From the NCBI GenBank assembly GCA_014762625.1, contig JABURQ010000119.1, forward strand, positions 1 to 64,000: a stretch of DNA of 64,000 bases. The letters run 5' to 3'. A program made the position numbers and the translations under genes. Below are positions 8,228 through 49,423 of the stretch, piece after piece (within the stretch, counting starts at the first letter, position 1; the number at the start of each line of letters is the position of its first letter). A model generated the notes under the pieces. It was not told the DNA's origin, ran no database searches, and saw only the letters and a list, made by a program, of their open reading frames with translations. The stretch is from Planctomycetaceae bacterium. Its GTDB lineage: Bacteria; Planctomycetota; Planctomycetia; Planctomycetales; Planctomycetaceae.

Positions 8228-8347
8228 AGAAACGAGAAGGTCTCATGAAATAGCGACGGAACGTGAAATAGTATAGCAATTATGCGCAATTTCTCATTGC
8301 CGGGCTATTGTTTTCGGTTAGTGTGAATAAAGAAATCAATCTCCTTC

Positions 8348-8370
8348 CACACACACACACACACACACAC
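8348..8370. repeat. (CA)n microsatellite in the 5' leader of the 8392 gene
   Basis: Eleven CA units plus a final C lie immediately before the ribosome-binding site GGAG (8378) of the large dehydrogenase gene. Long dinucleotide tracts are uncommon in bacterial chromosomes and prone to slippage. If translation began at the upstream in-frame TTG (8308), the tract would encode alternating His-Thr. Confidence 0.9.
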
Positions 8371-8391
8371 CTTCTCTGGAGTGAGACCATC

Positions 8392-11300: not shown

Positions 11301-12768
11301 AATTGTGGACGATTTAATGCAACAGGTGGAGAACGAAGAACGGTCGGCTGAAGACCGAGTGGAATCGGCCCGCAGTCTGGTGACGTTCCGCAGTACTGAC
11401 CTGAAAGTTGCTGAGAGCATTCTGGATCTCATCGGGGCGCAAACGGAACCGGTCCTTGCGGATGGTTTGTTGAACGCCTTGCGACAGTCGCAGGCCGATG
11501 GGGTTGGGGAAGCGATTGTCGACAAACTTCCCGAGATGACTCCTTCCGTGAAAGCGACGGCGTTCCGCGTTCTCTTGTCCAATCCGAAAACAACAACCGC
11601 GCTTCTGTCCGCAGCGGCTGAAGGGGAAGTTTCTTTGTCAGAGCTCTCCCTCGACCAGAAACAGGCGCTGGCCAATCATCCCAACGCCCAAATCCGGGAG
11701 ATGGCCAAACCGTTGCTCGCGATGGGAGGCGGTTTACCGAATCCGGATCGTCAGAAGGTCTTTGATGCTCTGGTCAGTGTGACCGAACGCACCGGGAACC
11801 CCGAACAGGGGAGGGAACTGTTCAAGAAACATTGCGCGAAATGTCATAAGCACGGCGATATGGGAGAAACGATTGGCCCCAATCTGACCGGCATGGCCGT
11901 CCATCCGAAAAAAGAACTTCTGGGACATATCATCGATCCGAGCAAAGATGTCGAAGGCAATTACCGGATCTACACGATCGTGACCGATGAAGGACGCGTG
12001 TTTAACGGCCTTCTGGCCTCGGAGTCGAAAACGACACTCGAATTGATCGACACCGAAGCGAAGAAGCATACGATCTTACGCGAAGAGATCGAGGAACTGA
12101 TCGCGTCCCGAAAATCGCTGATGCCGGAAGGCTTCGAAAAGCAGATGACCGAAACGGAACTCGCCGACCTGCTCGAATTCCTGACGCAAAAAGGGAAGTA
12201 CGTGCCGTTGCCCCTGGCGAAAGCGGCCACAATCGTCTCCACGCAGGGGATGTTCTTCGACAAAGCGGGGCAGGCCGAGCGGATGATCTTTTCGGACTGG
12301 TCTCCCAAAACGTTCAATGAGGTTCCTTTTCAGTTAGTCGATCCGCAAGGAACGAAAGTACGGAATGTCATTCTCCTGCATGGTCCGTATGGCAATTTCG
12401 CTCCCACCATGCCGAAAAGTGTGACTCTTCCCTGTAATGCCCCTGCGAAAGCCATCCATTTTCTCTCGGGAGTCTCCGGCTGGGGATTTCCCGCCACTCC
12501 CAAAGGGTCGGTTTCCATGATCGTGAGGCTGCACTATGCCGATGGCTCTCACGAAGATCACGAGTTAATCAACGGAGTTCACTTCTCTGATTATATTCGT
12601 CGGATTGATGTCCCCGGATCAGAGTTTGCATTCCAGTTGCGGAATCAGCAGTTGCGATATTTTGCGGTGACACCGAAAACTCAAAAGGTGATCGAAAAAG
12701 TGGAACTGCTCTCGGGAGGAGATCCCTCGGCCCCCATTGTTATGGCGGTGACGGTCGAAACACCGTAA
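8392..12768 (+). CDS. Giant secreted redox protein: ThuA + dehydrogenase propeller + HEAT + c-type heme
   Basis: 1458 residues from the ATG at 8392, chosen because GGAGTGAG is 6 bases upstream and a signal peptide (SRFILFTLILAFSVSGTLSAAE) follows at once. Domains in order: ThuA-like fold (about 32-236); the planctomycete/verrucomicrobial membrane-bound-dehydrogenase propeller (about 290-670, with DTDHDGRADKFTVFAEQL and DTDGDDVADTRKVL); HEAT-like helices (about 690-1110); a c-type heme segment with CAKCH at 1148-1152 and a downstream methionine-bearing KKSLMPEG-like stretch; and a C-terminal beta-rich domain. The likely role is periplasmic oxidation of a sugar or similar substrate, with electrons passed to the attached heme; this is inference from the domains. 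The XylR-like gene diverges from it and a Nudix gene follows after 9 bases. Confidence 0.88.
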   Translation: MFSWLSRSRFILFTLILAFSVSGTLSAAEKNPLSLLFLGDNGHHQPRQRFEQLSPVMRTRGIDLTYTDDMREINEESLSNYDGLVIYANTTEISPEQEAALLDFVASGKGFIPLHCASYCFLNSEKYIALVGAQFLKHETGIFRTNIVSPDHPVMKGYHGFRSWDETYVHHKHNSKNRTVLETRTQGESEEPWTWVRTHGKGRVFYTAWGHDDRTWSHPGFQNLIERGIRWACGSDPAVAGPYADRLPMTELPPDMKPFDYVDVGPKIPNYTPSEKWGTQGKPLTLMQKPLSPEESLKHYVTPEDFELQLFVSEPDLKGKPIAMNWDARGRLWVCETVDYPNELRPPGEGRDRIRICEDTDHDGRADKFTVFAEQLSIPTAIEFWRGGAIVQNGTETLYLKDTDGDDVADTRKVLFGGWELGDTHGGVSNFRYGLNNWIYAMQGYNNSAPTINGEEQQRFRMGFFRFKPDGSEIEFLRSTNNNTWGLGITEEGLIFGSTANHNPSDFMPIPNRYYERVKGWAPQRLEGIADTYKFDPITDKIRQVDQFGGYTAGAGHAVYTARTYPEYFWNRTAFVCGPTGHLVGTFLLNPDGAGFHSTSPMNLIASDDEWSAPIMAEVGPDGHVWVIDWYNYIVQHNPTPQGFETGQGNAYMSDLRDKKHGRIYRVVYKKADQYEPVDLVNASPQELVALLKHDNMFWRLRAQRLLVERGKNDVMQALVQLLMDHSVDELGLNVGAIHALWTLDGLGLVHSENPIVYEAVVRSLLHPSTAVRKAAIQTLPYHEQNQNIGHVIVSQPFSQTDAQLQLAAILAVSDTPQTDEYGSAGDLVARISCQDEFLSDRWLKDALTSAAAMHDLHYLTTFSQPGVAPHAQTHEIISIVSEHLARSEPDSKKMNQLLVGLKGSDSGLLLTVLSGLSEGWPKDYEIQINDQAQDALLGWIEKLPPGAKGQLIALAPKWGTDRLEKYAIEIVDDLMQQVENEERSAEDRVESARSLVTFRSTDLKVAESILDLIGAQTEPVLADGLLNALRQSQADGVGEAIVDKLPEMTPSVKATAFRVLLSNPKTTTALLSAAAEGEVSLSELSLDQKQALANHPNAQIREMAKPLLAMGGGLPNPDRQKVFDALVSVTERTGNPEQGRELFKKHCAKCHKHGDMGETIGPNLTGMAVHPKKELLGHIIDPSKDVEGNYRIYTIVTDEGRVFNGLLASESKTTLELIDTEAKKHTILREEIEELIASRKSLMPEGFEKQMTETELADLLEFLTQKGKYVPLPLAKAATIVSTQGMFFDKAGQAERMIFSDWSPKTFNEVPFQLVDPQGTKVRNVILLHGPYGNFAPTMPKSVTLPCNAPAKAIHFLSGVSGWGFPATPKGSVSMIVRLHYADGSHEDHELINGVHFSDYIRRIDVPGSEFAFQLRNQQLRYFAVTPKTQKVIEKVELLSGGDPSAPIVMAVTVETP

Positions 12769-19205: not shown

Positions 19206-19892
19206 TTACAGCTCGCGGAGTTTGATGTTCCGCCATTTAACCCAGTAAGGTCCGGTTCCTTTTTTGATGCCGTGCACCTGTAAACCGATAAATCCTTCTT
19301 TATACTTCTCGACGAACTCTTCGCCGTCCAGTTTGGGATTCTTCTTGAGGTCTTCGATCAGGTTGAGGTCTTCAATCTGGCGACCGTTAATCCAGGTTTG
19401 AATCTGCGGTCCGACGGCTTTGATGCGGAAGTGATTCCACTCGCCGTTTTTCATGGCATCTGTCGGCTTGAGGCGATCTTCGGGAGTCAACCAGCCGCCG
19501 CCGGTCGCTTCGCCGTAGACGTAGCCGGCTTCGGCCGGGCCTGACTCGATTTCAACCTGTGGTCCGTTCACGCGATTTTTCGGGTCGTCATTGTCGGTTT
19601 GCGAACGAATCTGGCAGCCGGAATTCAGGCTGTCGTGAACCATGACATCAAACTGCAGCTCGAAATCACCGTATTTTTTGTCGGTACAGAGAAAGGAATT
19701 CGGGCTCCCTTCCGAGGTGGTCCCGAGAATGGCTCCATTTTCGACCACGTAATTAGCGGTTCCGTTACGCTGTGTCCAGCCGTCGAGATTTTTACCGTTG
19801 AATAGATTCACCCAGCAGTATTGGGCTTCGACTGTAGTCGCGGTGAGAGAGAGTGAGGCCGCAAGGCCCAGGCAGATCATCAGATGCTTCAT
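19206..19892 (-). CDS. Secreted DUF1080 protein (3-keto-disaccharide hydrolase type, LamG-like fold)
   Basis: 228 residues with an N-terminal signal peptide (LMICLGLAASLSLTATTVEAQ). The family core is evident: NLFNGKNLDGWTQRNGTANYVVENGAILGT near the start, SGCQIRSQ in the middle, and GFIGLQVHG near the end. DUF1080 proteins adopt a concanavalin-like fold and some cleave 3-keto-glycosides; planctomycetes encode many. GAGGAG precedes the ATG by about 10 bases. Activity here is inferred only from family membership. Confidence 0.93.
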   Translation of the reverse strand: MKHLMICLGLAASLSLTATTVEAQYCWVNLFNGKNLDGWTQRNGTANYVVENGAILGTTSEGSPNSFLCTDKKYGDFELQFDVMVHDSLNSGCQIRSQTDNDDPKNRVNGPQVEIESGPAEAGYVYGEATGGGWLTPEDRLKPTDAMKNGEWNHFRIKAVGPQIQTWINGRQIEDLNLIEDLKKNPKLDGEEFVEKYKEGFIGLQVHGIKKGTGPYWVKWRNIKLREL

Positions 19893-36045: not shown

Positions 36046-37443
36046 TTATCCCAAATTGAGCCGACTATCTCCTTTCGGCAAATCGAAACAGAGTAGACGT
36101 TTTTCTTTCACATCGCAGAAGGTTCCCGGTTTCAGATCCAGCGGTCGCTTCACCGCCGTCAGCTTCTGGAGACCTTGGTCAGACTGGATGCGCGGCTGAT
36201 GGAAGTCGGTCGATTTTGCCGTTTCCAGAGTGAAGTTCGGCGAGGCGAACGGGGCTTTCAGTATCGTCGTTTCACCCTTTGTCTCGATCGTGGTCAATTC
36301 TTTGGCCGCCCAGTATCGGGCGATTTCACTCAGCTTCATCCAGATCACGTTTTCGTTGCGAGCGTGGACCCGTTTGACGGCTTCCTTAAAGATGTTGAAA
36401 CCGAGTTCGTCGCCGTTGTAATAGATTCCCGGCCAGTGACAGACCATGATCGCCGGCTCGCCTCGATCGATCACTTCGGGCAGGCGGCCACCCTGGAGGT
36501 CTTCGGTGATCAGTTTGTCGACAGAACCGGGAGTCAAGCCGTCCCACCCACCGAACCAGTCTCCCGTACAACCGATAATCGAAACGACGCACTGAGGATC
36601 GTCTGTCTGTAAACCTTTCGCGTTTTCGACGCGAGGAGCGACGCTGCGATCATCGGTATAAAGATGCCGGAAATAATGTGGGATTTCAGTGCCGTATACA
36701 TCCCGACAGGCTTGCAACGTGCTGAGCGATAATGCTTCCCGGGATCGATTGCCGTACCCGCCGGGAGTCGTGACTCCCTCGCAATAGAGCCCCGCGTTTT
36801 TGAGAATTCGGAGAGCGTAAGCGGCATAGTCAGCGAGTTCGTCGGCGGATTTATTGACGCTCCAGCCCCAGTTCTCCATATAATTTTCGTTACGCTCGGG
36901 ATAGGGACGTCCTGTTTTGGTATTAATGGCCCAGGTGTGAGTGACCATCTCCGGGTGAATGTCCCAGTCCTCCTGCATGAACTCACGGACCAGCTTGAGA
37001 CTCTCCTGTAGTTCCCGTTTCGTCCAGCCCGGCATCTCTCGATCGACCCACCCGACCATCGCGGGGTAGGGGACGATGCTGTATTTCCCTTTCACGCCCT
37101 GTTCCCGACACCACTCGCCGAATTTGCGGACGAAGGCATCGGGAATCTCACGCGGCAAGGATCGCCAATCCTGCTTGTATCTGTCGGGGAAGACTTCTGC
37201 GAACTGTGGGATGCAAAAATGGGCGAGATTCACCAGCGCACAGGAATCGTCGATGATAAAACTGAGCGGGACGCGATTGCGGGGATTCAGAACTTTCACG
37301 GAATCAGTTTGTTTCGGACGTTCTCCCGGTTCCTGGGCGAATGCCGGGAGTGTCCGACTGAGCCAGCCGATCGCAGGCATACTCGCCAGCGACGTGAGGG
37401 CTGTTTTCGAGAGAAATTCGCGACGGGACTGCTGATCCAACAT
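36046..37443 (-). CDS. Tat-exported polysaccharide-deacetylase-like protein
   Basis: 465 residues with a twin-arginine signal (QSRREFLSKTALTSLASMP). VPLSFIIDDSCALVN near 58-72 resembles the metal-binding DD motif of NodB-type deacetylases, and HPEMVTHTW supplies possible histidine ligands; TTPGGYGNRS is consistent with the later motif. The match is partial, so catalysis is uncertain. It is the last gene of a minus-strand run (giant redox protein, acyltransferase, this gene) with spacings of 39 and 12 bases, suggesting joint action on a substituted glycan. Confidence 0.7.
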   Translation of the reverse strand: MLDQQSRREFLSKTALTSLASMPAIGWLSRTLPAFAQEPGERPKQTDSVKVLNPRNRVPLSFIIDDSCALVNLAHFCIPQFAEVFPDRYKQDWRSLPREIPDAFVRKFGEWCREQGVKGKYSIVPYPAMVGWVDREMPGWTKRELQESLKLVREFMQEDWDIHPEMVTHTWAINTKTGRPYPERNENYMENWGWSVNKSADELADYAAYALRILKNAGLYCEGVTTPGGYGNRSREALSLSTLQACRDVYGTEIPHYFRHLYTDDRSVAPRVENAKGLQTDDPQCVVSIIGCTGDWFGGWDGLTPGSVDKLITEDLQGGRLPEVIDRGEPAIMVCHWPGIYYNGDELGFNIFKEAVKRVHARNENVIWMKLSEIARYWAAKELTTIETKGETTILKAPFASPNFTLETAKSTDFHQPRIQSDQGLQKLTAVKRPLDLKPGTFCDVKEKRLLCFDLPKGDSRLNLG

Positions 37444-37455
37444 GGACGACCTCTT

Positions 37456-38814
37456 TCACACGCGGATAAAGAATTTGTGACGATACATCCAGAGCGCAAT
37501 CAACCACATCGTAAACAGGACCAGTATCGATTCGTTGATCGGCGCGTATACGTTCTTTTCACTGAAAAAGATCGGGATGAGCGAAGTCTGAAAGACCTTG
37601 TCGATGGTAGTCATGTGCGTTTCCAGATTGCGGGCGATGAAGCCATGCATCAGCGATGCCATCAGGTAAAACGCGATCGAGTTCATCCCGACCACAACCA
37701 GAGGAAACCCGAGCCGTTTCACATTCAGAATGTCGAAAATCAGAAAGAAAACCGCCATCATCAGAAAAACCCAGCCAGCACTGAAAATCGCCCAGGTGGG
37801 AGTCCAGATGCGTTTCACGATCGGGCAGACGGTCCACCCCCAATCGCCGGTATCCATCGGCCAGATATGAGTATCCATCAGGAAACCCGCAACCAGTAAC
37901 AGAAAACCCCAACCGAACAGCATCCGGCACTTGCGTCGTTTGGTTTCTGTCCCGATCAGTAACTGTCCCGCGATCAAGCCGAAGATCATCGTCGCGATCG
38001 ACGGGATAAAGTTCAGAGTCGTGTAGCCTCCAGTATTCACCCAGAATTTCTTGCCCCGGAACTCTTCCTCGAAGCGCGGCGGTTTGTTGAGCCATTTTCG
38101 ATCGAAGCCGGCCGCGGCGTTGGTATGTTTGTTCCAATGCGCGGAATACTCATCGTCGAAGATTTCGACTTCTTCTTCGGGATCGTATCCCTCTTCTTCG
38201 AGATACGCATACAGGTCGATCCGTTCCGGTTCGGGAATCGTGTAATTGTAGAACCAGTAACCGTAACCTCCCAGAATGAACAGGATCGCTATCACCTGAA
38301 CGACCTGGCCTCGTCCCACCAGCAGATACACAAACAGGTAGCCGAGTCCGATTTGAGTAAGCACATTCACCAACTTGAAGTGCGTCATCGGATCGCCCAC
38401 CGAATACAGAAACACTCCCAGCAGAATCAAAACGAGGGAGCGGATCACCGCATGCAGAAACCGTCCGAACCAATGCTGACCCTGGCGGGCGCGTTTGGCA
38501 TACGAAAACGGCATCGAAACGCCCACCATGAACATGAACGCCGGCTGGATCAAATCCCATAACGCGCAACCGACCCAGGGGACGTGTGAGAGTTGGTAAG
38601 CCAACGTTTCCCAGAGCATCTGGCTCTGACCCGAGGAGACAATCTCCGACTGGTGTCTGTTCCAGACACGGGCCAGATGAAATCCTTCGGAAGCCATTAG
38701 CAGCATCACGAAGCCACGAAACGCATCGAGGGAGGTCAGTCTCGCGGTCGGTTTCTCTGTCTCGACCGGTAGTTTCTGTGGCGGTTCGGGCTGTTTGCCG
38801 ATGGAGTATGTCAT
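37456..38814 (-). CDS. Membrane acyltransferase, heparan-alpha-glucosaminide N-acetyltransferase-like (DUF5009 type)
   Basis: 452 residues with about ten membrane segments. The family signature RLTSLDAFRGFVMLLMASEG is at about 25-44, and the conserved WDLIQPAFMFMVGVSMPFSY follows near 97-116. This matches the HGSNAT/DUF5009 group, which in animals acetylates glucosamine of heparan sulfate across the lysosomal membrane. Here it could move acetyl groups to a periplasmic sugar. A hydrophilic loop (about 205-260) rich in acidic residues is inserted in the middle. It is the middle gene of the 36-42.7 kb operon. Confidence 0.85.
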   Translation of the reverse strand: MTYSIGKQPEPPQKLPVETEKPTARLTSLDAFRGFVMLLMASEGFHLARVWNRHQSEIVSSGQSQMLWETLAYQLSHVPWVGCALWDLIQPAFMFMVGVSMPFSYAKRARQGQHWFGRFLHAVIRSLVLILLGVFLYSVGDPMTHFKLVNVLTQIGLGYLFVYLLVGRGQVVQVIAILFILGGYGYWFYNYTIPEPERIDLYAYLEEEGYDPEEEVEIFDDEYSAHWNKHTNAAAGFDRKWLNKPPRFEEEFRGKKFWVNTGGYTTLNFIPSIATMIFGLIAGQLLIGTETKRRKCRMLFGWGFLLLVAGFLMDTHIWPMDTGDWGWTVCPIVKRIWTPTWAIFSAGWVFLMMAVFFLIFDILNVKRLGFPLVVVGMNSIAFYLMASLMHGFIARNLETHMTTIDKVFQTSLIPIFFSEKNVYAPINESILVLFTMWLIALWMYRHKFFIRV

Positions 38815-38853: not shown

Positions 38854-41800
38854 TTATTCGGGTCCGTGACTGTGCCCTGGTTTGAATCCGTGTCCGGCCT
38901 TGTCCTTGAGGTGCTCGGGGAGTTGATAGCCCCCCGCTTCCAGAAACGACAGCAGGTCGAGGATTTCGTCTTTCTGCAACACGTCGGCCAAACCTTGCGG
39001 CATGGGAGAAATCTTCGAGGGAAAGCGTTCGTCAATCTGCTTCTTCTGTATCACGGTGACCTGCGTCGGTAACAGCATATTCTGAATCAGATGGAGTTCC
39101 GATTCAGTTTCTTCGGCGATTACACCGGTAAACACTTTGCCGTTCTCCAGAATCAGTTGGTGCGGCTGGAACTTCTTATTGATCTCGCTGGAGGGTTCGA
39201 GAATCTGTTTCAGCAGTTTCTCGCCGCGATAATCTTCCGCGACTTTCGTCAGGTCGGGACCAATTTTCACGCCGTGTCCGCCGACCTGATGGCATTGGTG
39301 GCATTTGGCTTTGAGGAATGACTGCATGCCCCGCATCACGCGATCTTCCGACTGTTTGACTTTCAGACCGGCGAAATCGGCCAGCGTCCATTTCCTGACG
39401 ATTTGGGGTTTGGCGGAGGCGAGAAGTTGTTCGGCTTCTTCCAGACTGGTCCCGACGGCGATGGAACCGTTCATGATGACCCAGTGCCCCGGAAACGTGC
39501 AGACGAACGGATAGATCCCCGGTTCTTTCGGCGCGACAAATCGCAACACGTGGACCTGATTCTTGCGCGTCGGACCGATCATGGGCGAGAATTCCAGAAT
39601 CGAATCCATTTTCTCTTTCGGGATGAAATCGGAATTGGCGAACTTGGGATCTTTCGCCATTTCATTCGCCGCCATCCCGACCTCTTCCAGTTTTCCCGGC
39701 TTCACGATCACCAGGTTGTGATCCGTGGCGTCGGGATTAGAGAAGACGATTTTTACCGGCTGGCCCGCAGTGACGGCAATTTCATCGACGGTATATCGCA
39801 TTCGTTCCGGCTGACATCCGATCCGCACGGTTTTGAGATTCTTCTGACTGTCGAATTGAGCTTCTTGTGCGGTGGCGGCAGGTTCTTTGAGTTCGCTGCT
39901 CCGTTCCAGCTTTTTCATCAGCCGCGCGAGATTGTAGCTCGGGTCGTTCTCCCAATGCGGTCGGAGCGTGTGAGAACCGAGCGAACAGCGAATCGCGTAC
40001 GCCAGATGGCCGTCCGCAGGATGATTGAGAACATCGAGCATCGCATCGAGTGCCGGTTTCGTCCCGATGTAGCTCGCCGCGATCGCCGCTTCCATCCGCA
40101 CCAGACCGTTGGAGTCATTCGCCGATTTTCGCAACAGCGAGATAGCGTCCGGCATTTCGTCGTGCCAGTAGCGGAGTTGCTGAGTGGCGGCGGCGCGGGC
40201 GTGATGATCGTCCGAAGAGAGGATGTCCCGCAGCAGATCGGTATCGACCGCTTCGATCCAGCGAAGCGTCCAGACCGCTTCGATCTGGTGGTGGCGATAA
40301 CGGGGATCCTGCGGATCGAGATTGGCGACCCACGCTTTGACCGCCTGCTCGGCTCGATCGTGATCCCGTTCGCGAAGTTCCCGTTTCGCCCAATAGCGGT
40401 AGCGGTATTCGGGACGAGACAGCATCGAGACGAGTTCCGGGATCGACATTTCCGCGAAGTTGGGAGTCTCCTGCAGGTCGTGTCCTTTCGCGGTAATTCG
40501 CCAGATTCGACCCGAATGACGATCGCGTCGTTCGTCGCGAAGTGAATACTGCATGTGGCCTTTGACCGGGTTGTACCAGTCGCAGACATACATCGCTCCC
40601 CGCGGACCGTAACGCAGATCGACCGGAATAAAACTGAGGTTCGTCGAGAAAATCAAATCGCTAACGTATTCTTCGTCGTAGCCGAATTCTCCTTCGACCC
40701 ACTTGTGAATCTCGATCCGGTTGGTCGGTTTGTAGCGGGCTTTGATGAATCCTCCCTGAAGCTCTTCCGGAAAGGTCGCGAAATCGACGAACTCATGACC
40801 GCAGGTCCCCGAATACGCCCGCAAGCCGGCAGGTTTGGGATGCTGTTCGGGATAGGGGGGATCGAGCGAATGAAACGCGGCGGCGAAGATCGGGTGACTG
40901 GCAACGTGATTCCCCCAGTCGTCAAACGTCACACCCCACGGATTCGTGCTGTGATATGTGCCGAAACTGGTCAGTCGATGATGGGCCGGCTCGAATCGGA
41001 ACCAGCCGCTGTTTTGCTGACGAACCGGGCCGTACGGCGTTTCGACCTGCGAATGATGAAAGATCGATTCCCGAAACAGCAGATCGCCGTCCGGTGTCCA
41101 GGTAAAGTCGTGTAACGCATGATGCGAATCTTCCGTACCGAAACCGGTGAGTATTAGCTTTCTTTCGTCTGCTTTGTCGTCGCCGTCCGTGTCTTTCAGG
41201 AAAGTGAGGTGCGGCATTTCGGAAACGTAGATTCCCCCGTCGCCGAATTCAAACGAGAGAGGAATATGGAGATCGTCGGCGAATACGGTCGATTTGTCGG
41301 CTTTGCCGTCCTGGTCGGTGTCTTCCAGAATGACGATCTTGTCGTTCGGTTCGTTCATCGGATAGACGTGCGGATAAGTCGTCGAACAACTGACCCACAA
41401 CCGCCCGCGATTGTCCCACCGCATCTGAATCGGGGCTCCGATATCGGGAAATTCTTCTTCGCCCGCAAACAGGTTCACTTCAAACCGGGGATCGATCTTG
41501 AACGCTTTCAGTTCTTCTCCCGCCGTCATCCATTCGTTCGCTCCCCGGCTTTGGGCTGTGGGCGGCATTTCAGGGAGATTGGAATCGTCGATCCGTTCCG
41601 GAAGGGCTTTCCCCTGGGCCAACGCCCACAATCGATTGTCCCGATTGCGAACCATCAGGTCGAAGTTTTTCATGGCGGGGAGAAAGTCGAGATAGCCGTA
41701 CGTCTTGTTCCGCCCTCCGGTGTAATAGAAGGTGTTGAGGGGACGATAACGTCTGAAGAACTGTCGGTTTTTATCGACGACCAGGTCGCGGATATCTTCA

Positions 41801-42684
41801 TTGACGACGGAGGCGTCTTCGTGAAACGTTCCCCGGAACAAAGCCCGTGAGAAAATCTCGTAGCCGTCTTCATTCAAATGCACACCATTCAACGTTAGCG
41901 GGGAATCGCTTTCCGCCATCGCCTGGGAAGTCGCCTGATAGACGTCCACAAATCCGACCTGCTCGGCTTTCGCCACTTTCTCGACCACGTCCGCGTAGAG
42001 CTTGAGATTCGCATTATTGTTGGTTCCAGCGGGAACTCCTTTAATGTTCTCGTTGGCGATGGGAGAAACGAGAATCACCTGCGGTGCTGATTGGCCGTTG
42101 AAGGCGCGCGATTTCAACATCCGCACATGCTCGGTCAACGCGGTCTCGAAGTCGGCGAGCCCCGCTTTTCCGGTAAACGATTCATTGAATCCATAAGAGG
42201 CGAAGATCACGTCGATCTTCTCGTGGGTCAGATGCTGATTGAGATCGGCGAAGTTGTCGGGACGCGGTTGCAGGTCGGGGGTATCAGCGGACCAGCAGAA
42301 GTTGCGGAAGGTCAACTGGTGATGCGGATATTTCTGATGCAGGAACGTCTCGAAGTAGCCGTGAAATTGCGACTGTTCCAGAAGACCGTTCCCAACGAGC
42401 GCGATACGCGCTTCGTTTTTGAGGGTGAGAGGTAGCCTGGTCTCGGCTGGAGCCACGGTTTCCGCCCGCGGAGCAGTGTTTTCAAAAATGGCGTATTTGG
42501 CGTATTCGGGATCTCTTTCCGGTGCCGGCTCTCCGGTTTTGCGATTCTTGGCATCTTCGACCTTTGGAGGATTGGCTTTTCCGTTCTGCTTTTGTTTTTG
42601 AGCGTCCAGATCGGAAGACCACAACAGACAACAGCACAGAACGAACGCAACGGTGGAGAGAATAAATCGAATCGAGCGAGACAT
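38854..42684 (-). CDS. Giant secreted redox protein: GDSL-like + dehydrogenase propeller + HEAT + azurin-like + c-type heme
   Basis: 1276 residues with a signal peptide. In order: a GDSL/SGNH-like domain (about 90-290; block V is NGVHLNEDGY); the dehydrogenase propeller (about 370-700, with LEDTDQDGKADKSTVFADDL); HEAT-like helices (about 720-920); an azurin/plastocyanin-like copper domain (about 948-1083, ligands in DHNLVIV and FVCTFPGHWVIMNG); and a heme segment with C1128-HQCH1132. The GDSL serine is replaced in VGNGLLEQ, so that domain may be binding only. The design suggests electrons from substrate oxidation leave through copper and heme within the same chain. It heads an operon with the acyltransferase and deacetylase-like genes. 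Confidence 0.88.
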   Translation of the reverse strand: MSRSIRFILSTVAFVLCCCLLWSSDLDAQKQKQNGKANPPKVEDAKNRKTGEPAPERDPEYAKYAIFENTAPRAETVAPAETRLPLTLKNEARIALVGNGLLEQSQFHGYFETFLHQKYPHHQLTFRNFCWSADTPDLQPRPDNFADLNQHLTHEKIDVIFASYGFNESFTGKAGLADFETALTEHVRMLKSRAFNGQSAPQVILVSPIANENIKGVPAGTNNNANLKLYADVVEKVAKAEQVGFVDVYQATSQAMAESDSPLTLNGVHLNEDGYEIFSRALFRGTFHEDASVVNEDIRDLVVDKNRQFFRRYRPLNTFYYTGGRNKTYGYLDFLPAMKNFDLMVRNRDNRLWALAQGKALPERIDDSNLPEMPPTAQSRGANEWMTAGEELKAFKIDPRFEVNLFAGEEEFPDIGAPIQMRWDNRGRLWVSCSTTYPHVYPMNEPNDKIVILEDTDQDGKADKSTVFADDLHIPLSFEFGDGGIYVSEMPHLTFLKDTDGDDKADERKLILTGFGTEDSHHALHDFTWTPDGDLLFRESIFHHSQVETPYGPVRQQNSGWFRFEPAHHRLTSFGTYHSTNPWGVTFDDWGNHVASHPIFAAAFHSLDPPYPEQHPKPAGLRAYSGTCGHEFVDFATFPEELQGGFIKARYKPTNRIEIHKWVEGEFGYDEEYVSDLIFSTNLSFIPVDLRYGPRGAMYVCDWYNPVKGHMQYSLRDERRDRHSGRIWRITAKGHDLQETPNFAEMSIPELVSMLSRPEYRYRYWAKRELRERDHDRAEQAVKAWVANLDPQDPRYRHHQIEAVWTLRWIEAVDTDLLRDILSSDDHHARAAATQQLRYWHDEMPDAISLLRKSANDSNGLVRMEAAIAASYIGTKPALDAMLDVLNHPADGHLAYAIRCSLGSHTLRPHWENDPSYNLARLMKKLERSSELKEPAATAQEAQFDSQKNLKTVRIGCQPERMRYTVDEIAVTAGQPVKIVFSNPDATDHNLVIVKPGKLEEVGMAANEMAKDPKFANSDFIPKEKMDSILEFSPMIGPTRKNQVHVLRFVAPKEPGIYPFVCTFPGHWVIMNGSIAVGTSLEEAEQLLASAKPQIVRKWTLADFAGLKVKQSEDRVMRGMQSFLKAKCHQCHQVGGHGVKIGPDLTKVAEDYRGEKLLKQILEPSSEINKKFQPHQLILENGKVFTGVIAEETESELHLIQNMLLPTQVTVIQKKQIDERFPSKISPMPQGLADVLQKDEILDLLSFLEAGGYQLPEHLKDKAGHGFKPGHSHGPE

Positions 42685-42813
42685 CGAGGATCCTTCAGGT
42701 CGGTAAGAGTCTTGTCGTAGTCAAAAACATTCTAGCGACAGTCCGACCCGGAATCACGATGTATCAGAAGAGAAAGCGATCTTCTGTGAGCCTCTTTGAG
42801 AGTGATCGAATTT

Positions 42814-43797
42814 TTAAAAGTCGTACCACAAGCCCCAGCCGAGCTGTCGTTCGAACCGGTCATAAAAAGAAAGCTGGCTGCTTTTACCATTGTACAGATA
42901 CAGTCCGGTTCGTAGCAGTCCGGTCGATGGAGCATCGGCTCGCCACGACCAACCCATCTGTGCTGAGACAGCTCCTCCGAAATCGACTTCCTCACGTAAG
43001 TCGCCGTTAATCGCGAAGAAAGGAGCCCCACGGCGCCCCGTGGGGACGGCGGGCGCATATTCCGCTCCGAAAGCAAACCGCCATTTTTCGGCGACAATAT
43101 TGATGAATGCATACGAAGCTTCCGCATACAAGCGAACGTCTGGAGTGGAATAATAAGAATAGCCGAAGGTGAGATTGTCGCGCACGTAATTGAGTCGATC
43201 GTATCCGGGATTGCTGATCAGAAATTCGTCTCCGAGATGCGAACTGAGGTGCGTGTAACCGAATTTGAAACGATGAGGTCCTGTCCCCCAGGTGAGTGGT
43301 AAAGCCATACGGAAATCCATCGCGTCAACATCCGTATTCTCTCGGGGGTCGATTCGAACTGAAACTCCTCCCATGAAATCAAGTTGTACCCCCTCGTTAC
43401 GATCCGTGGCACCCCAGCGAACAATTCCCAGACGCCCTCCGAGAGAGGATTCCCACAGTAACCCGTCGTCGTGATCAGATACCCATTGAGTCCCCAGGCG
43501 AGGTTCGTGGGGATGGCTGAGGTAAGTCGGATAGATGAAACCTTGCGGCAATAACTTCCATCCATATCCGTCTGCTGCGGCAGATAGTCGCTCATCGAAT
43601 CTCGTCGATGAAAATCCAGATTCTCCATCATCCCAGGAAGTATGAATGCTTGCCCGACCTGTATCGACGGACCCCACGTCTTCAAGTCCGACCCACGGTT
43701 GACCGCGCAAAGAACCACACACCGTCAAAGCGAATAACAAGGCGCAGAGAACGGATCGATGGATTGTGGTATTGAACAGTCGGAAGGAAACCATCAT
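42814..43797 (-). CDS. DUF1207 outer-membrane-like beta-barrel protein
   Basis: About 327 residues from the ATG at 43797 (frame open to 43884; GAGG lies just upstream). A signal peptide (SVLCALLFALTVCGSL) is followed by alternating beta strands ending in an aromatic residue (GWGLWYDF), as in outer-membrane barrels. Hallmarks of DUF1207 are TYLSHPHEPRLGTQ, LGGRLGIVRWG, HRFKFGYTHLSSHLGDEFL, LNYVRDNLTFGYSYY and APFFAINGDLREEVDFGG. Function is unknown. It is on the same strand as, and 129 bases before, the giant redox gene at 42684, and has a terminator just upstream of it. Confidence 0.88.
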   Translation of the reverse strand: MMVSFRLFNTTIHRSVLCALLFALTVCGSLRGQPWVGLEDVGSVDTGRASIHTSWDDGESGFSSTRFDERLSAAADGYGWKLLPQGFIYPTYLSHPHEPRLGTQWVSDHDDGLLWESSLGGRLGIVRWGATDRNEGVQLDFMGGVSVRIDPRENTDVDAMDFRMALPLTWGTGPHRFKFGYTHLSSHLGDEFLISNPGYDRLNYVRDNLTFGYSYYSTPDVRLYAEASYAFINIVAEKWRFAFGAEYAPAVPTGRRGAPFFAINGDLREEVDFGGAVSAQMGWSWRADAPSTGLLRTGLYLYNGKSSQLSFYDRFERQLGWGLWYDF

Positions 43798-43840
43798 CTG
43801 CCTCGAAAGGAAAGCTGTTGAGGCGAGTAAACATAGAATC

Positions 43841-43875
43841 AAAAAAGGGACTGGAGTTATAGATCTCCAGTCCCT
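43841..43875 (-). terminator. Terminator of the 44174 gene
   Basis: A perfect 11-base stem (43846-43856 with 43865-43875) and 8-base loop, followed on the minus strand by TTTTTT (43846-43841). It ends the transcript of the large gene at 44174. Repeat copy 3 lies between the gene's stop and this terminator. Confidence 0.92.
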
Positions 43876-43899
43876 AAGGGTCAAGATAAAGTAGGTGCT

Positions 43900-44149
43900 A
43901 ACAGCCCGTTGAAAAACTCGATTTTGCTGCGAATGGATTTTTGATCTGAATCACATCGTCACAAATTCTCGATGAATCCCAGCATGGCTGGCTTGTTGAT
44001 TCGAGACCGCACCACCAATGTCGGCGAACAGTTTGAAGCTGACATGACTTTGATCGGCGGAACCGGAAAGATTCACCTGCGAATTCCTTCCTTGTGCTCC
44101 TTTCAAAATTCTCATTCTCGCCAATAAATCCGTTTCTCGACACGCTGCT
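43900..44149. repeat. Three-copy repeat family, copy 3 (long form)
   Basis: A 250-base copy with the family's terminal inverted repeats (AACAGCCCGTTGAAAAAC at the left; GTTTCTCGACACGCTGCT at the right). It contains, at 43978-44070, a 93-base segment absent from the other copies, which have 6 bases (copy 2) or nothing there. It lies 24 bases past the stop of the giant gene at 44174 and before its terminator. No transposase is present. Confidence 0.85.
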
Positions 44150-44173
44150 TATGAATCCGACGGAAATCTTTCA

Positions 44174-47100
44174 TTAGCGATAAACCGCCGCGTCGGGATC
44201 TCCGGCTGACTCGATGTAGAGGAGTAGGTCGAAGATTTCCTGTTTGGTCAGGGTGTTGAGCAACCCTTCGGGCATCAAAGAGACCTTGGAATCGACCCGT
44301 TCCTCAATCGTTTCCTTGGAGATCTCGATCGCTTCGGCGTCTTTTTCCAGTGGATTCGCCATCAGTCGAACGATCTTGTCGTCTTCATAAACGACCACGC
44401 CGCTGTACGGTTTGCCGTCTTCGTTGATAATGATCTGCGACCGGAATTTCTCATCGATCACTTTGGACGGTTCGATCATTTCGGTCAGAATGCGGACCCG
44501 GTCGAGCTTGCCCTCCTGGATCTTTTGTTTGACGAGTGTCAGATCGGGACCGATTTTCGCTCCCTCTCCTCGCATCTGGTGACACTGGACGCAGGCGATC
44601 GATTTGAACAGCATCCGACCGTTTTCGAATGAGCGGTTTTCATCCGCGCTCGGCAGCGACGCCAGCAAGTCTTCCACCTGCCACTTACGAACGAAACGTC
44701 GTTGGTACATCGGACCGTCGGAATGGTCGTGTTCGTCGGCGGGTTCATCCAGTTGTTCGAGCGGGATTTCCGAAATATCGTTGACCACATGGATGGTTCC
44801 ATACATCGTTCTCCAGTGACCGGGGAACGTGCAGACGTACGGATAGTCTCCCAGTTCCTGCGGGGCGGTCAGTTTCAGCCGCTCCTGCAAACCGGGTTGC
44901 AGGAGGTTGGTATAAGCCAGTACCTTGTCCGTATCCGGGATAAACTGCTTCTGCATTGCAGCCGGAGAGGAACCGAGTTTCTCAGCCAGAATGCCGACTT
45001 CCGCGCGAGCTCCTTGTGCGGTCAAGACGAGGTTGTGAGGCATGATGTCGGTGTTCTCAAAGACGATCTCAAACGGCTTGCCCCCTTCGACGTATAGATT
45101 CGTGCGGTCGTACTGCATTTTGTGCGGTACGGGACGAATAAAGAAAACATCGACGCCGAGCTGGCGGAACTGCGTGATCAACGATCGGGCCTCGTCTTCC
45201 GGTAGAATGACGGCGAGACGTTTGCCGAGCTGAATCGCTTCCATGATGTCATCGCGGGTCCGTTCCTTGATCGGCACCTGTTCGATGATACCGAGCAGCG
45301 TATCGATCAGCGGCCTCACTTCCGTTTTGGGAAGTTTCGTCCGATTGAGACGGCCGAGAGCCGAAACCGCTGCCGCCCGCGACTTGTTTGTTTTGACGAA
45401 TTGGGACAGCGTCTTGAAGGTGTCTGCCTCATGTCCCGGCACGGAGACGATCGAACGGATTGCTTCTTCGCGGATCACCTGTTGCGGGTTACCTTTGATG
45501 GCAAATTCCGTCTTTGGTTGGGGAGCGGCGTTGTTGCCGCGAGCGTAGACGGCTTGTCGCGAAGAGTCGAGAATCTCGACTTTGAATTTGTCGAGTCGCT
45601 TGCCGAGATCGCCGTCCGTCCGGTTCCAGACCACAATCTTTTCGATCGGGAAATCGGATTTCAGATCCACTTCCCACCACGGGTTATTTTCCCCACTCGT
45701 GTGAGTCGAAGACCCTTCGTTGTAGACGCCGCTGGTATTTCCATCGATGGCTCGTTGCGGTGCACCGCTGGAGGCGACGGAAGACTGTCTGGCTCTTCCC
45801 TGAGTGGCGATATTTTCGCCTCCGCTGAAGACCTGCACCTCGGCCAGTGTGAGTGTGCGGTTCCCCTGTCCGGGAATACTGACTCGAACATAGCGACCGA
45901 GTCTTCCTTCCTGTTTACCGATGGAAGTGGCGAGCGGTTCGGGGAGTCCGTGCAACAGCGGTTCCAGTCGCGAATACGTTTTCTCACGCAGTTCGGGAGA
46001 TTGAATCAGCGGAATCGCAGCGACCAGGTCACGCAAAGCTCCCAGAGACTGGATTCCTTTCTCCCACGCCGCCTCCATCGACTGATCGGCGGTGATTAAA
46101 GCAGCGAAAGCGACGCGTCGCGTGATCGGCTTCGTCGCCCATTGCGTCAGTTCCTCAATTTGAGCGCGGTGTTTGGCGATCTCCTGTCCCGGTTGACGAC
46201 TGAGCAGAATTCCCAGGTCGATCAGCACGTGTTCGCCGTGTTCGCTGTCGCGGGTGTCGAGATGTGAGATAGTTTCCAGTAACTCATCCATCGGAGTCGT
46301 GTTGTGAAGTCGAGCCAGACCTTCGATCGCTTCCTGACGATGCTGGAAGACGACACCATGCCGATTTAACATTTCGTCAAAGACGATTTCGCTACGCGCC
46401 ATGTTGATCAGGTCGGGCGTTTTGATCTGCGAAATGATGAACTCAATCCCGGCAGTATTATCCTTCGCGAACGGTTGTCCGGCGGCAACTGCCGGAAGCC
46501 AATACGGCTGAAGCGCCTGCATTGTTTGTTTGAGCGTATAGTCGAGATAGTAATCCATTTCGTGATTGAGCGCCATCAGGGCGATTTCACCCGCTTCCGG
46601 CGTCTCAAAGAAACTCGCCGCGCGTACCGCTTCGAGTCGAACCCGCGGATGCTCGTCGTTCACCATCTCCTGCAACAACGGCAGAGCTTCCGAAACGTCG
46701 TCCCGCCAATATCCAAGTACGCGCGTGGCGGCGGCACGGGCGTGGTAATCGGGGGAGTGTAAGACGCGACGGAGATGACTGGTATCGACGGCGTTATGAT
46801 GCTGACGCACCCACAACGTCTCCAGCAACAGATGCTCGTAGTTGTCGGCGTTCTTGTTGAGACCGGCGATAAACTGCTCGATCCCGGCGACAACTTCCGC
46901 GGTCGGGTGTTCTCGCAATTCCTCGCGAACGCGGTAACGGGTCCGGTCTTCCGGTTCGTTCAGCAGGCTGAGCAGTTCTTCGACGGAGGCTCCGTCGATG
47001 TTCGGTTTTTTGACCAGTGGACGCGAAGGATACGTGATCCGCCAGATGCGACCGTGCGTGTGATCGCGATTCGGGTCGCGGATCGAATGTTGCAGGTGAC

Positions 47101-49111
47101 CGATCAACGGATTGAACCAGTCCACAATGTACAACGCCCCATCCGGTCCGAACTGGATATCGGTCGGTCGAAAGTTTCGGTCGGACGAATAGAGCAATGG
47201 CTCGATCTCTTTGCCTTCAAATCCGGAATCGACCTCTTTCACCGTATGTTGCAAAATGCCCTGAAAGCCGATGACGTTATTCAGCAGGTAATTTCCTTGC
47301 GCTTCCGGTGGGAAATGCCGACTGGAGACCAGTTCGCACCCCGCGGTCGGACGTACTCGTTTCGGGAAGAACTGTTTCATCTGCGGAGCGTAGACGAACT
47401 TGAACGGTCCGAAGTCATCCTGTCCGGTGAATTGCGGCGCTTTCCCCGAGAATGCGGTGCCGTAGTAATTCGCTCCTCCCGACGCATCGGCCACGAAGTT
47501 CTGTCCCCATTTGTCGAACACGTGACCCCACGGGTTAGCGAAGTTGTAATGAACGAAGGTCTCGAACTTCTCTTTGGTCGGATCGTATCGATAGATTCCG
47601 CCGTGAGCGTTGCGAACCGGTCCATACGGAGTTTCGACCATCGAGTGATGAAACGTCCCTTCGTGCATATAGAGGCCGCCTCCCGGTCCCCAGGTGAACG
47701 CGCCGATCGCGTGGTGAGTATCGCCCGAATCGAAACCGTGCAGGACGAGTCGCGAGAAATCGGCCTTGCCGTCACCGTCCGTATCCTTGAGAAACATCAG
47801 ATTCGGTTGTTGAGCGACGTACACCCCTCCGTCCCCCAGCTCAAAGCCGGTCGGGACGTGCAGGTTTTCCGCGAAAACTGTCTGCTTGTCCGCTTTGCCG
47901 TCACCATCCGTGTCTTCCAGAATCAGTAACTTGTCGTGCGGTTTATGAGGCGGTTTGTAGCCGGGATAGGAGGGCATGGTCGCCACCCACAAGCGACCTT
48001 TGGTGTCGAACGTGATCTGAACCGGGTTTTCGATATCCGGAAAGTCCACCTCACTGGCAAACAGATTAACTTCGTACCCCTCCGCCACATGAAACTGCTT
48101 GATCGCTTCTTCCGGCGGGAGAATTTCAATCGGCTCCGTAAAGTTCGTTTCCACGGGAACGTAACCGCGTGTGTTCGAGTAATCGGGAGTCGTCGAGATC
48201 GGCTCCCCGGATAACAGTTTCCAGATACGCTGATCGACCACAGCGCACATCTCGTCGAGCTTGGCTCGCTCGTTCTCCATCACCTCTTCGTTGTTCCAGA
48301 CTTTATTCCGGGCACCGTAAATGTAATAGCCGTTCACCGCACGATAACGATGGAACCACTGATAGTCCTTTTCCTGAACCTCGGCGAGCAGTTGCGCTGA
48401 GGCTTCTCGCGCGGGCTCCTCCCCGATTAACGCCTCGTAGAAAACCGGAGCGAGTTCCCGGTATCCGGAATCAGTCAGATGAATGCCGTTGAAGGTGAAA
48501 TGTTCTGATTCCTGCAACATCTTTTTCTGGGTGGGAGTAAACAGGTCGACAAAACCGACCGCCTCTTCCTCCGCCACTTTTTTCATGATCTGCGAATACA
48601 TGGCGATGTTGGCATTGTTCGCCGAGCCGTCCGGCAAATTCGGATTCTTGAGATCCTCGTGCGGAATCGGGGTAAAGAGAACCAGCCGCGGTGCCGATTC
48701 GCCGTTATATTTTTGTTTCAGGGTATGTTTGACGAAGGCTCGCAGGTCGTTCTCAAATTTTTCGAGTCCTTCCTCCCCTTTGAAGGATTCGTTGAATCCG
48801 AAAAAAGCAAAGACGACGTCGGTATCGGAATGAGTCAGGTGTTGATCGGGATCCCCGAAGTTCAGGGAGCGTGGACGAAAAGCGACTTCATCCGCCGAGA
48901 ACGCCAGGTTGCGAAACGATAATTGCAGATCCGGGTGATTCGCGTGCAGCAACGCCTCCAGGTAACCGAAGTACTGCATCCGTTCGGCGAGCGTCGCGCC
49001 AATCAGACTGACGTTGTCTCCCTGTTTGAATTCAAAGGGAGGAGATGCCGCTTTCACGACGGGAGCCAATAATCCAAGAACGGCGATTGCCGCCAGCAGG
49101 CAACGTTTCAT
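44174..49111 (-). CDS. Giant secreted redox protein: GDSL-like + dehydrogenase propeller + HEAT + discoidin + azurin-like + c-type heme
   Basis: 1645 residues from the ATG at 49111, which has GAGG 6 bases upstream; an ATG at 49123 is possible. Numbers below count from 49123. A signal peptide is followed by a GDSL-like domain (about 30-230; block V is NGIHLTDSGY), the propeller (about 335-690, with LEDTDGDGKADKQTVFAENL), HEAT-like helices (about 700-1060), an F5/8 type C (discoidin) domain (about 1072-1206, with ATQGRARQSS and NPWWEVDL), an azurin-like copper domain (about 1326-1446, with PHNLVLT and YVCTFPGHW) and heme site C1511-VQCH. The discoidin module, absent from the sister at 38854, suggests carbohydrate or surface binding. 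Confidence 0.88.
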   Translation of the reverse strand: MKRCLLAAIAVLGLLAPVVKAASPPFEFKQGDNVSLIGATLAERMQYFGYLEALLHANHPDLQLSFRNLAFSADEVAFRPRSLNFGDPDQHLTHSDTDVVFAFFGFNESFKGEEGLEKFENDLRAFVKHTLKQKYNGESAPRLVLFTPIPHEDLKNPNLPDGSANNANIAMYSQIMKKVAEEEAVGFVDLFTPTQKKMLQESEHFTFNGIHLTDSGYRELAPVFYEALIGEEPAREASAQLLAEVQEKDYQWFHRYRAVNGYYIYGARNKVWNNEEVMENERAKLDEMCAVVDQRIWKLLSGEPISTTPDYSNTRGYVPVETNFTEPIEILPPEEAIKQFHVAEGYEVNLFASEVDFPDIENPVQITFDTKGRLWVATMPSYPGYKPPHKPHDKLLILEDTDGDGKADKQTVFAENLHVPTGFELGDGGVYVAQQPNLMFLKDTDGDGKADFSRLVLHGFDSGDTHHAIGAFTWGPGGGLYMHEGTFHHSMVETPYGPVRNAHGGIYRYDPTKEKFETFVHYNFANPWGHVFDKWGQNFVADASGGANYYGTAFSGKAPQFTGQDDFGPFKFVYAPQMKQFFPKRVRPTAGCELVSSRHFPPEAQGNYLLNNVIGFQGILQHTVKEVDSGFEGKEIEPLLYSSDRNFRPTDIQFGPDGALYIVDWFNPLIGHLQHSIRDPNRDHTHGRIWRITYPSRPLVKKPNIDGASVEELLSLLNEPEDRTRYRVREELREHPTAEVVAGIEQFIAGLNKNADNYEHLLLETLWVRQHHNAVDTSHLRRVLHSPDYHARAAATRVLGYWRDDVSEALPLLQEMVNDEHPRVRLEAVRAASFFETPEAGEIALMALNHEMDYYLDYTLKQTMQALQPYWLPAVAAGQPFAKDNTAGIEFIISQIKTPDLINMARSEIVFDEMLNRHGVVFQHRQEAIEGLARLHNTTPMDELLETISHLDTRDSEHGEHVLIDLGILLSRQPGQEIAKHRAQIEELTQWATKPITRRVAFAALITADQSMEAAWEKGIQSLGALRDLVAAIPLIQSPELREKTYSRLEPLLHGLPEPLATSIGKQEGRLGRYVRVSIPGQGNRTLTLAEVQVFSGGENIATQGRARQSSVASSGAPQRAIDGNTSGVYNEGSSTHTSGENNPWWEVDLKSDFPIEKIVVWNRTDGDLGKRLDKFKVEILDSSRQAVYARGNNAAPQPKTEFAIKGNPQQVIREEAIRSIVSVPGHEADTFKTLSQFVKTNKSRAAAVSALGRLNRTKLPKTEVRPLIDTLLGIIEQVPIKERTRDDIMEAIQLGKRLAVILPEDEARSLITQFRQLGVDVFFIRPVPHKMQYDRTNLYVEGGKPFEIVFENTDIMPHNLVLTAQGARAEVGILAEKLGSSPAAMQKQFIPDTDKVLAYTNLLQPGLQERLKLTAPQELGDYPYVCTFPGHWRTMYGTIHVVNDISEIPLEQLDEPADEHDHSDGPMYQRRFVRKWQVEDLLASLPSADENRSFENGRMLFKSIACVQCHQMRGEGAKIGPDLTLVKQKIQEGKLDRVRILTEMIEPSKVIDEKFRSQIIINEDGKPYSGVVVYEDDKIVRLMANPLEKDAEAIEISKETIEERVDSKVSLMPEGLLNTLTKQEIFDLLLYIESAGDPDAAVYR

Positions 49112-49423
49112 CGAGAGCCTCATTCAGTGATCTCAGCAGGATTGTGTGTGGGAAGGGAGTCGTCCAGAAGACGATTCCCGATCGGGTGGGAAGCGATTTA
49201 TGATTACCATCGCCTGTCTTTCCATTATCAGCACTCTGACAGGACAAGCAAGGGTTTGTTCCACGTGACTGATCGCTTCCAGGCAACAAACTCTCTACAA
49301 AATCCCAGAATCGCAGAGATTTTCGGGAATTTTCCCACCCCGTTCGGTCTCCTACTGAGTGAGCTGGTCAGCCATCCTCAGCGTTGCCATTCCATCATAC
49401 ACCTCACATCGAGGAGAAATCCC

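Follow-up and report, generated by a model that had tools for sequence, protein, structure and literature searches.

Multidomain proteins joining a propeller to copper and heme domains

Can a single planctomycete protein oxidise a substrate and also hand on the electrons through copper and heme centers of its own? The question is raised by two open reading frames (ORFs) on contig JABURQ010000119.1 of a Planctomycetaceae bacterium (GenBank assembly GCA_014762625.1), whose positions 1 to 64,000 are referred to here as the window. The original prediction, made from the letters alone, had proposed two fused copper-heme dehydrogenases, possibly with their own electron relay, at 38854-49111; the place of both ORFs stands, and the upper end is to be moved, as it falls 12 bases short of the start codon of the longer protein. 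We find that the copper-heme domain arrangement of both proteins is real, and we give about even odds (roughly 0.5) to their being periplasmic carbohydrate oxidoreductases with a tethered relay, in which electrons would leave the propeller through copper and then heme for a soluble acceptor. The two proteins, termed A and B, and their domains are the following.

44174..49123, minus strand: protein A, 1649 residues, with a signal-like N-terminus by eye
48458..48973, minus strand: SGNH/GDSL domain of A, residues 51-222 by Pfam, with GAT in place of GDS in block I, which directly precedes it, and Asn as the block V acid
47030..48115, minus strand: DUF7133/TIGR02604 propeller of A, residues 337-698, fold taken from its homologue B
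46550..46777, minus strand: HEAT repeats of A, best stretch at residues 783-858
45497..45754, minus strand: F5/8 type C (discoidin) domain PF22633 of A, residues 1124-1209, absent in B
44786..45121, minus strand: type-1 copper domain of A, residues 1335-1446
44207..44626, minus strand: TIGR02603 c-type heme domain of A, residues 1500-1639
38854..42684, minus strand: protein B, the short form, 1276 residues, with a signal-like N-terminus by eye
41854..42372, minus strand: SGNH/GDSL domain of B, residues 105-277, serine absent (GNG)
40483..41517, minus strand: propeller of B, residues 390-734
39994..40239, minus strand: HEAT repeats of B, best stretch at residues 816-897
39454..39828, minus strand: type-1 copper domain of B, residues 953-1077
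38938..39336, minus strand: TIGR02603 c-type heme domain of B, residues 1117-1249

Both chains run in the order SGNH, TIGR02604/DUF7133 propeller, HEAT, copper and c-type heme, with the discoidin domain preceding the copper domain in A only; B lacks this domain as well as the long stretch surrounding it in A. In hmmscan searches both proteins passed the Pfam cut-offs of PF13472 (A 51.7, B 46.8 bits; cut-off 32.9), PF23500 (DUF7133), PF13646 (HEAT_2), PF00127 (Copper-bind; A 36.9, B 27.9 bits; cut-off 21.2) and PF00034 (Cytochrom_C), and A alone matched PF22633. The NCBIfam cut-offs were likewise exceeded for TIGR02604 (A 246, B 215 bits; cut-off 122.2) and TIGR02603 (A 82, B 94 bits; cut-off 68.15). 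The fusion of GDSL-like, propeller, azurin-like copper and CxxCH heme domains claimed for both chains is borne out by these matches, to which the HEAT repeats of both proteins, the discoidin domain of A, the loss of the SGNH serine and a DUF1207 gene lying between the two ORFs have to be added as features that the original prediction did not mention. The N-terminal stretches of both proteins are hydrophobic and signal-like by eye, which fits the presence of copper and c-type heme.

An AlphaFold2 model of B residues 80-1260, built from 61 rows, reached a mean predicted local distance difference test score (pLDDT) of 85.4 and a predicted template modelling score (pTM) of 0.73. When this model was searched with Foldseek, auracyanin A came first (E 2.8e-9, template modelling score (TM) 0.87 by target), followed by azurin, SGNH enzymes such as Axe2 and the cytochrome Kustd1711.

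Conservation of the copper and heme sites

The copper ligands are H1363, C1431, H1436 and M1440 in A and H989, C1062, H1067 and M1071 in B; those of the heme are C1511, C1514, H1515 and the distal M1617 in A, and C1128, C1131, H1132 and the distal M1228 in B. The complete set of copper ligands (His, Cys, His, Met) and heme cysteines attributed earlier to both proteins was thus found. Conservation was followed in an alignment of 67 rows, comprising A, B, a third protein of the same genome (L015) and 64 relatives with matches to all four profiles (SGNH, propeller, copper and heme); in three rows the sequence touches a contig end. Each copper and heme ligand is kept in 67/67 rows, a count that is biased for the Cys, His and Met of the copper site, since the search patterns for the rows included that stretch, and unbiased for the first His and the heme ligands. 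In the B-type rows, B included, the copper and heme ligands are kept in 8/8. When 20000 shuffles of each protein were searched for the ligand motifs in their order (His...CxxxxHxxxM...CxxCH...SxMP), allowing spacings well to either side of those in A and B, none contained the pattern, and the arrangement is confirmed to be beyond chance.

The copper domain of A aligned with auracyanins at Z 18.7 to 17.0 and with azurins at Z 16.7 to 15.9, and neither protein reached the equivalog cut-off for azurin proper (TIGR02695; A 38.3, B 28.9 bits vs 105.1). A profile comparison gave Kustd1711 as the nearest relative of known structure for the heme domain (E 4e-25), with an alignment that extends across the beta insert as far as the distal Met. 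In Kustd1711 the hemes are ligated by His and Met, calcium is bound at 6.9 Å from the iron, and the potential is about +350 mV with Ca2+ (PMC11791136); as the calcium is held by main-chain groups, its presence in A and B is not readable from the sequence. Modelled alone, the copper-heme module of A gave a pLDDT of 88.8 and a pTM of 0.68, with linker residues 146-154 below 50, a prediction in keeping with two rigid domains joined by a short, flexible linker. Among the VIA-align matches listed for the copper-heme pair none spans both domains, which excludes nothing.

Distribution of the architecture and its split versions

In the genome of the window, TIGR02604 matched 39 pieces, distributed over 31 reading frames, of which 21 exceed the cut-off. 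A part of these places was examined, as 20 stretches, and an azurin-type motif was present in 3 of the 27 CxxCH ORFs of the window and the 20 own-genome loci: A, B and the 1643-residue L015 on contig C208. With the copper-heme module as query, 84,980 species genomes were scanned, and at least 584 relatives were confirmed among 590 stretches; of the best 80 of these, 78 carry titles of Planctomycetota or a subgroup and two are titled only 'bacterium'. In a sample of 294 Planctomycetota genomes, the own one included, at least 34 had a match covering copper and heme (E up to 1e-40), a lower bound as at most seven candidates were scored per genome.

The domain order was read in 83 copper-domain ORFs from the window, L015 and 80 loci, with profiles built from A, B and L015. 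Whole ORFs with the order SGNH-propeller-HEAT-discoidin-copper-heme account for 37 of the 83, and 27 more, B among them, have the same order and no detected discoidin domain. One whole ORF has no heme match and another no SGNH match, 13 run off the contig end, and four whole ORFs contain only copper and heme (L041, L048, L068 and L095). The SGNH-propeller-copper-heme architecture is widespread in Planctomycetota.

In two loci the chain is split. L124 (genome G027) and L126 (genome G011) have an SGNH-propeller-HEAT frame of 922 and 921 residues, after which a copper-heme frame of 650 and 648 residues, respectively, lies on the same strand and keeps all ligands; the part of this second frame before the copper domain shows only HEAT matches below the cut-off. 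Both loci belong to one clade (support 100). Since the split genes are kept adjacent in two genomes, the propeller and copper-heme halves appear to be tied together, and they are probably functionally linked.

The SGNH domain is probably inactive as an esterase

The SGNH fold was recovered on the model of B (Axe2, TM about 0.73 by target length). At the position of the block I serine, in a register set by eye on G-x-x-L, the 67 rows have Thr (46), Gly (8), Asn (6), Ala (3) or Val (2) and two gaps, so that Ser is found in 0/65. In block V, Asn takes the place of the acid in 59 rows and Asp is present in 8, and the SGNH His is kept in 66/67. A Ser does stand at the block I position in L105, a B orthologue outside the 67 rows. 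The missing serine makes esterase activity of this domain in A and B unlikely.

The propeller and the dehydrogenase question

VIA-align placed the propeller of B beside the pyrroloquinoline quinone (PQQ)-dependent sugar dehydrogenase 3a9g (Z 24.3, root-mean-square deviation 3.1, 280 aligned), with the fungal AA12 enzyme 6i1q (Z 24.1) and E. coli Asd (2g8s, Z 23.0) among the other matches. A sugar-dehydrogenase fold is thus settled as far as a model allows, and the function of the propeller is left to inference. A profile search of PDB sequences with the azurin-type propeller gave nine matches at E <=10 and no sugar dehydrogenase among them; the link to these enzymes comes from structure comparison and not from a sequence profile. 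Among the TIGR02604 paralogues of the own genome, L003 and L013 do exceed the cut-off of PF07995 (GSDH), and in L132, another GSDH protein encoded there, the chain is seen by eye to extend into a CxxCH heme domain of this kind.

The Arg228/Asn229 pair of the soluble glucose dehydrogenase (sGDH), which lies at the PQQ ketones, maps to A529/N530 of protein A, as placed by a profile alignment of low confidence (E 3.4e-4, probability 38%) together with a paralogue alignment, in which L003, L013, L017 and L018 (4 of the 17 TIGR02604 rows) show RN at the pair column and most of the other paralogues also lack the Arg. The residues matched to the Asn (N530) and to the catalytic His (H471) of sGDH are kept in 67/67 rows. 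Invariant throughout, in A numbering, are D468, H470, H471, N530, D668, W669, H676, Q678, R682, D683, R686 and R692, and these 12 residues could constitute an active site.

Several results weigh against an oxidoreductase. Propellers with no redox role have this fold too, the same model having matched HHIP (Z 22.2) and DFPase (Z 20.7), and no PF07995 match was listed for A or B at E up to 1. The column of the PQQ-pair Arg holds Ala (44), Pro (22) or Thr (1) and Arg in 0/67 rows, and the B type has also lost R652, the Arg of FRP, which is Ile in 8/8 rows. A search for PqqD in the own genome, which is 99.99% complete, gave no match, the same search having matched 3 of 14 control genomes (a PqqC search was silent in all controls and was not used). 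The geometry between domains is weakly predicted, as the pTM values of B and of the copper-heme pair given above indicate. Finally, in the split loci L118, L119, L121 and L122 the following same-strand gene, which in L122 lies about 1.6 kb on, carries heme and no copper motif, so the copper domain seems dispensable in some relatives. These four share a clade with L120, L123 and L128, for which no partner gene was detected; a further locus, L125, ends with its contig. The second gene of the four loci has an end of about 150 residues where the copper domain could have been; in L118 and L119, whose second genes were run against Pfam, this end gave no match.

The lost Arg and the PqqD result bear first on a true PQQ-dependent sugar dehydrogenase that takes its PQQ from the environment. 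PQQ enzymes are the best structural matches of the propeller and the paired His and Asn are kept; moreover, AA12 enzymes bind PQQ through a set of residues partly different from that of sGDH (PMC6881789). However, each residue of the Arg/Asn pair is about 94% conserved in AA12, where the catalytic His is not strictly kept (PMC6881810), and it is the Arg that is gone from all 67 rows here. With the missing PqqD match this makes canonical use of PQQ by the propeller doubtful, and we consider a PQQ enzyme quite improbable.

The propeller could instead be a non-catalytic scaffold for sensing or binding sugars, whose copper-heme tail would be an electron carrier or a metal store. HHIP has this fold, the PQQ-site Arg has disappeared, and the SGNH domain offers a precedent for a dead enzyme fold within the same chain. 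Yet 12 residues fixed in every row seem more than a plain scaffold should need, and the copper-heme part stays adjacent where the genes are split; we therefore take this explanation to be unlikely.

Substrate hints and the possibility of a hydrolase

ThuA domains have been tied to 3-keto-sugar metabolism by work on trehalose utilisation. In two B orthologues (L105 and L106) a ThuA domain precedes the SGNH domain in the same chain. Within the window, a third TIGR02604 protein (8308-12768, plus strand, 1486 residues) begins with a ThuA domain fused to the propeller and ends in a heme domain. Relatives repeatedly show ThuA frames of about this length, and in L018 of the own genome ThuA is fused to a propeller. 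Of the nine ThuA domains of this genome, two (ORF 8308-12768 and L018) are in frame with TIGR02604 and a third, on contig C74, adjoins a TIGR02604 gene. Among 30 ThuA loci from 25 genomes, taken best scores first, a TIGR02604-type propeller lies in the ThuA frame, as judged by position, in eight, the window ORF included.

The 3-keto-disaccharide hydrolase domain PF06439 shares a frame with GSDH on contig C126 and with ThuA on contig C46, although most of the 40 PF06439 matches of the own genome are not beside TIGR02604 genes. The frame on C126 (L131), of 706 residues, joins PF06439 to a GSDH propeller, for which HHIP is the best match by sequence to a solved structure. A PF06439 protein is also encoded in the window at 19206-19892 on the minus strand. 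Among other TIGR02604 paralogues, a ceramidase-like domain is present in L007 and NPCBM in L003. Together these associations point to a carbohydrate as substrate of the A/B family and indicate no specific one.

The recurrence of PF06439-GSDH, ThuA-PF06439 and ThuA-propeller fusions also speaks for another explanation, in which the propeller would be a glycoside hydrolase or lyase, perhaps running a 3-keto oxidation-elimination cycle or simply hydrolysing its substrate, while the tail of copper and heme domains would, for example, reset an internal redox step. The only tested relative that we found was produced in E. coli under isopropyl beta-D-thiogalactopyranoside (IPTG), a compound that induces chromosomal lacZ as well. 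For this protein, the verrucomicrobial Lac161_ORF7 (AGW45552; TIGR02604, HEAT_2 and cytochrome c), lactose hydrolysis at a Km of 1.8 mM has been reported (PMC5342196), which adds to the points against an oxidoreductase. Nevertheless, it came from IPTG-induced BL21(DE3)pLysS, whose listed genotype shows no lac deletion; the Km is near that of E. coli LacZ, as its authors note; and the passages of that paper seen here describe no purified vector-only control (PMC5342196). The likeness to A and B, compared by description only, covers propeller, HEAT and heme, and differs in that the description names no SGNH or copper domain. A hydrolase or lyase thus seems to us an improbable, if serious, alternative.

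The 'dehydrogenase' part of the original prediction accordingly keeps the fold matches to PQQ sugar dehydrogenases, the invariant metal sites and the adjacent split genes on its side, and has against it the absent pair Arg, the absent PqqD match and one tested relative reported as a beta-galactosidase. The idea of sulfated sugars, contained in its suggested growth tests, has weak support. Within 6 kb, 13 of 82 loci have sulfatase-like genes as neighbours, which make up 25 of the 552 neighbouring ORFs overall; they form a cluster that we take to be sulfatases from a sulfatase motif in one representative. In the own genome, scoring 150 of 202 candidates gave at least 128 PF00884 sulfatase matches, with pieces counted, and the sulfatase nearest to B on the contig is about 10 kb away. 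There is perhaps a mild excess of sulfatases near these loci. A 1509-residue frame of the own genome (L020:4128-8654, contig C131) joins a sulfatase to a c-type heme domain; it has no Pfam DUF7133 match and only a TIGR02604 match below the cut-off.

Gene order and neighbors

Two further genes on the same strand complete the locus.

42814..43884, minus strand: DUF1207 (PF06727) protein, between A and B
37456..38814, minus strand: NagX-like membrane protein, the next gene after B (103 bits vs the equivalog cut-off of 480)

The order A-DUF1207-B-NagX is common to both same-genus genomes examined (L113 and L114), with DUF1207 broken into two frames in L114 (genome G002). Outside the genus, DUF1207 is not among the top neighbour clusters; the protein has a weak porin match below the cut-off. 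After the NagX-like gene, a 465-residue protein (36046-37443, minus strand) with a twin-arginine-like leader by eye gave no Pfam match at the cut-off. A copy 84% identical to it follows NagX in L114, and none was seen in L113.

B is present without A in stretches from genomes G010, G011 and G037 (L115-L117). An origin of A and B as sister tandem duplicates found no support, as they fall in different well-supported groups, with B on a long branch, of a tree made by a quick method from the SGNH-to-HEAT part of 81 rows.

Discussion

All parts of A and B are known families, and their arrangement is widespread in planctomycetes. Among open-licence PMC papers we found none on the copper-heme form, and for TIGR02604, TIGR02603 and DUF7133 only PMC5342196. 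The curated models for the 'PVC-type heme-binding CxxCH protein' (TIGR02604/TIGR02603) and DUF7133 describe the propeller and the heme domain at the C-terminus of both proteins, whose scores exceed the cut-offs, but cover no SGNH or copper domain. The closest solved relatives of the copper domain, auracyanin A/B (2aan, 6kol and 1qhq) and azurin, are, unlike it, small separate proteins. Tethered copper/heme nitrite reductases resemble A and B in combining a catalytic domain with a built-in electron-transfer domain; in these, however, the copper centre reduces nitrite and the catalytic fold is unrelated. Kustd1711 (7zs0), the closest solved relative of the heme domain, is described as a diheme putative electron carrier of anammox bacteria and is not fused to a propeller in that description (PMC11791136). 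CcPDH, a fungal AA12-AA8 quinohemoprotein pyranose dehydrogenase, shares with A and B a six-bladed propeller with the fold of sugar dehydrogenases and a heme domain in one chain, and differs, so far as its paper was seen, in its heme b, the lack of a copper domain, a PQQ site with Arg430/Asn431 in place and its fungal origin (PMC6881789).

The domains, metal ligands, predicted fold and adjacent split halves of this system are computed results; for export, the redox chemistry of the propeller, its cofactor and substrate, and the order of the relay, we infer the following course. Both proteins would be exported to the periplasm, as judged from their N-termini by eye. The propeller would bind and oxidise a carbohydrate or another organic substrate near the conserved D-x-H-H site, and the electrons would leave through the tethered auracyanin-like copper domain. 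From there they would pass to the Kustd1711-like c-type heme, probably of high potential, and on to a soluble acceptor of the respiratory chain. If the copper site has a potential near +200 to +300 mV, transfer from it to a heme at about +350 mV, the value for Kustd1711, would be downhill. The SGNH domain, devoid of its serine, and the discoidin domain of A may serve as sugar-binding or structural parts, and the HEAT repeats as a scaffold.

A bolder form of the oxidoreductase reading can be put forward as a speculation that we think unlikely to hold. These proteins would be a class of self-wired glycoside oxidases present throughout the phylum, which have given up canonical PQQ binding for another cofactor or none and oxidise glycans, perhaps at C3 so as to feed ThuA proteins and 3-keto-disaccharide hydrolases, with electrons leaving through their own copper and heme and a dead esterase retained as a sugar-binding domain.

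For the TIGR02604 family, with its 31 frames in this one genome, the sole tested function that we found is a single, disputed-looking report (PMC5342196). The copper-heme members open the redox question to direct testing, as a simple spectrum shows when electrons have reached copper and heme. If the propeller proves to be an oxidase that works without PQQ, a further route to glycan breakdown, periplasmic and oxidative, would be added, and a well-studied fold would pose a new cofactor question.

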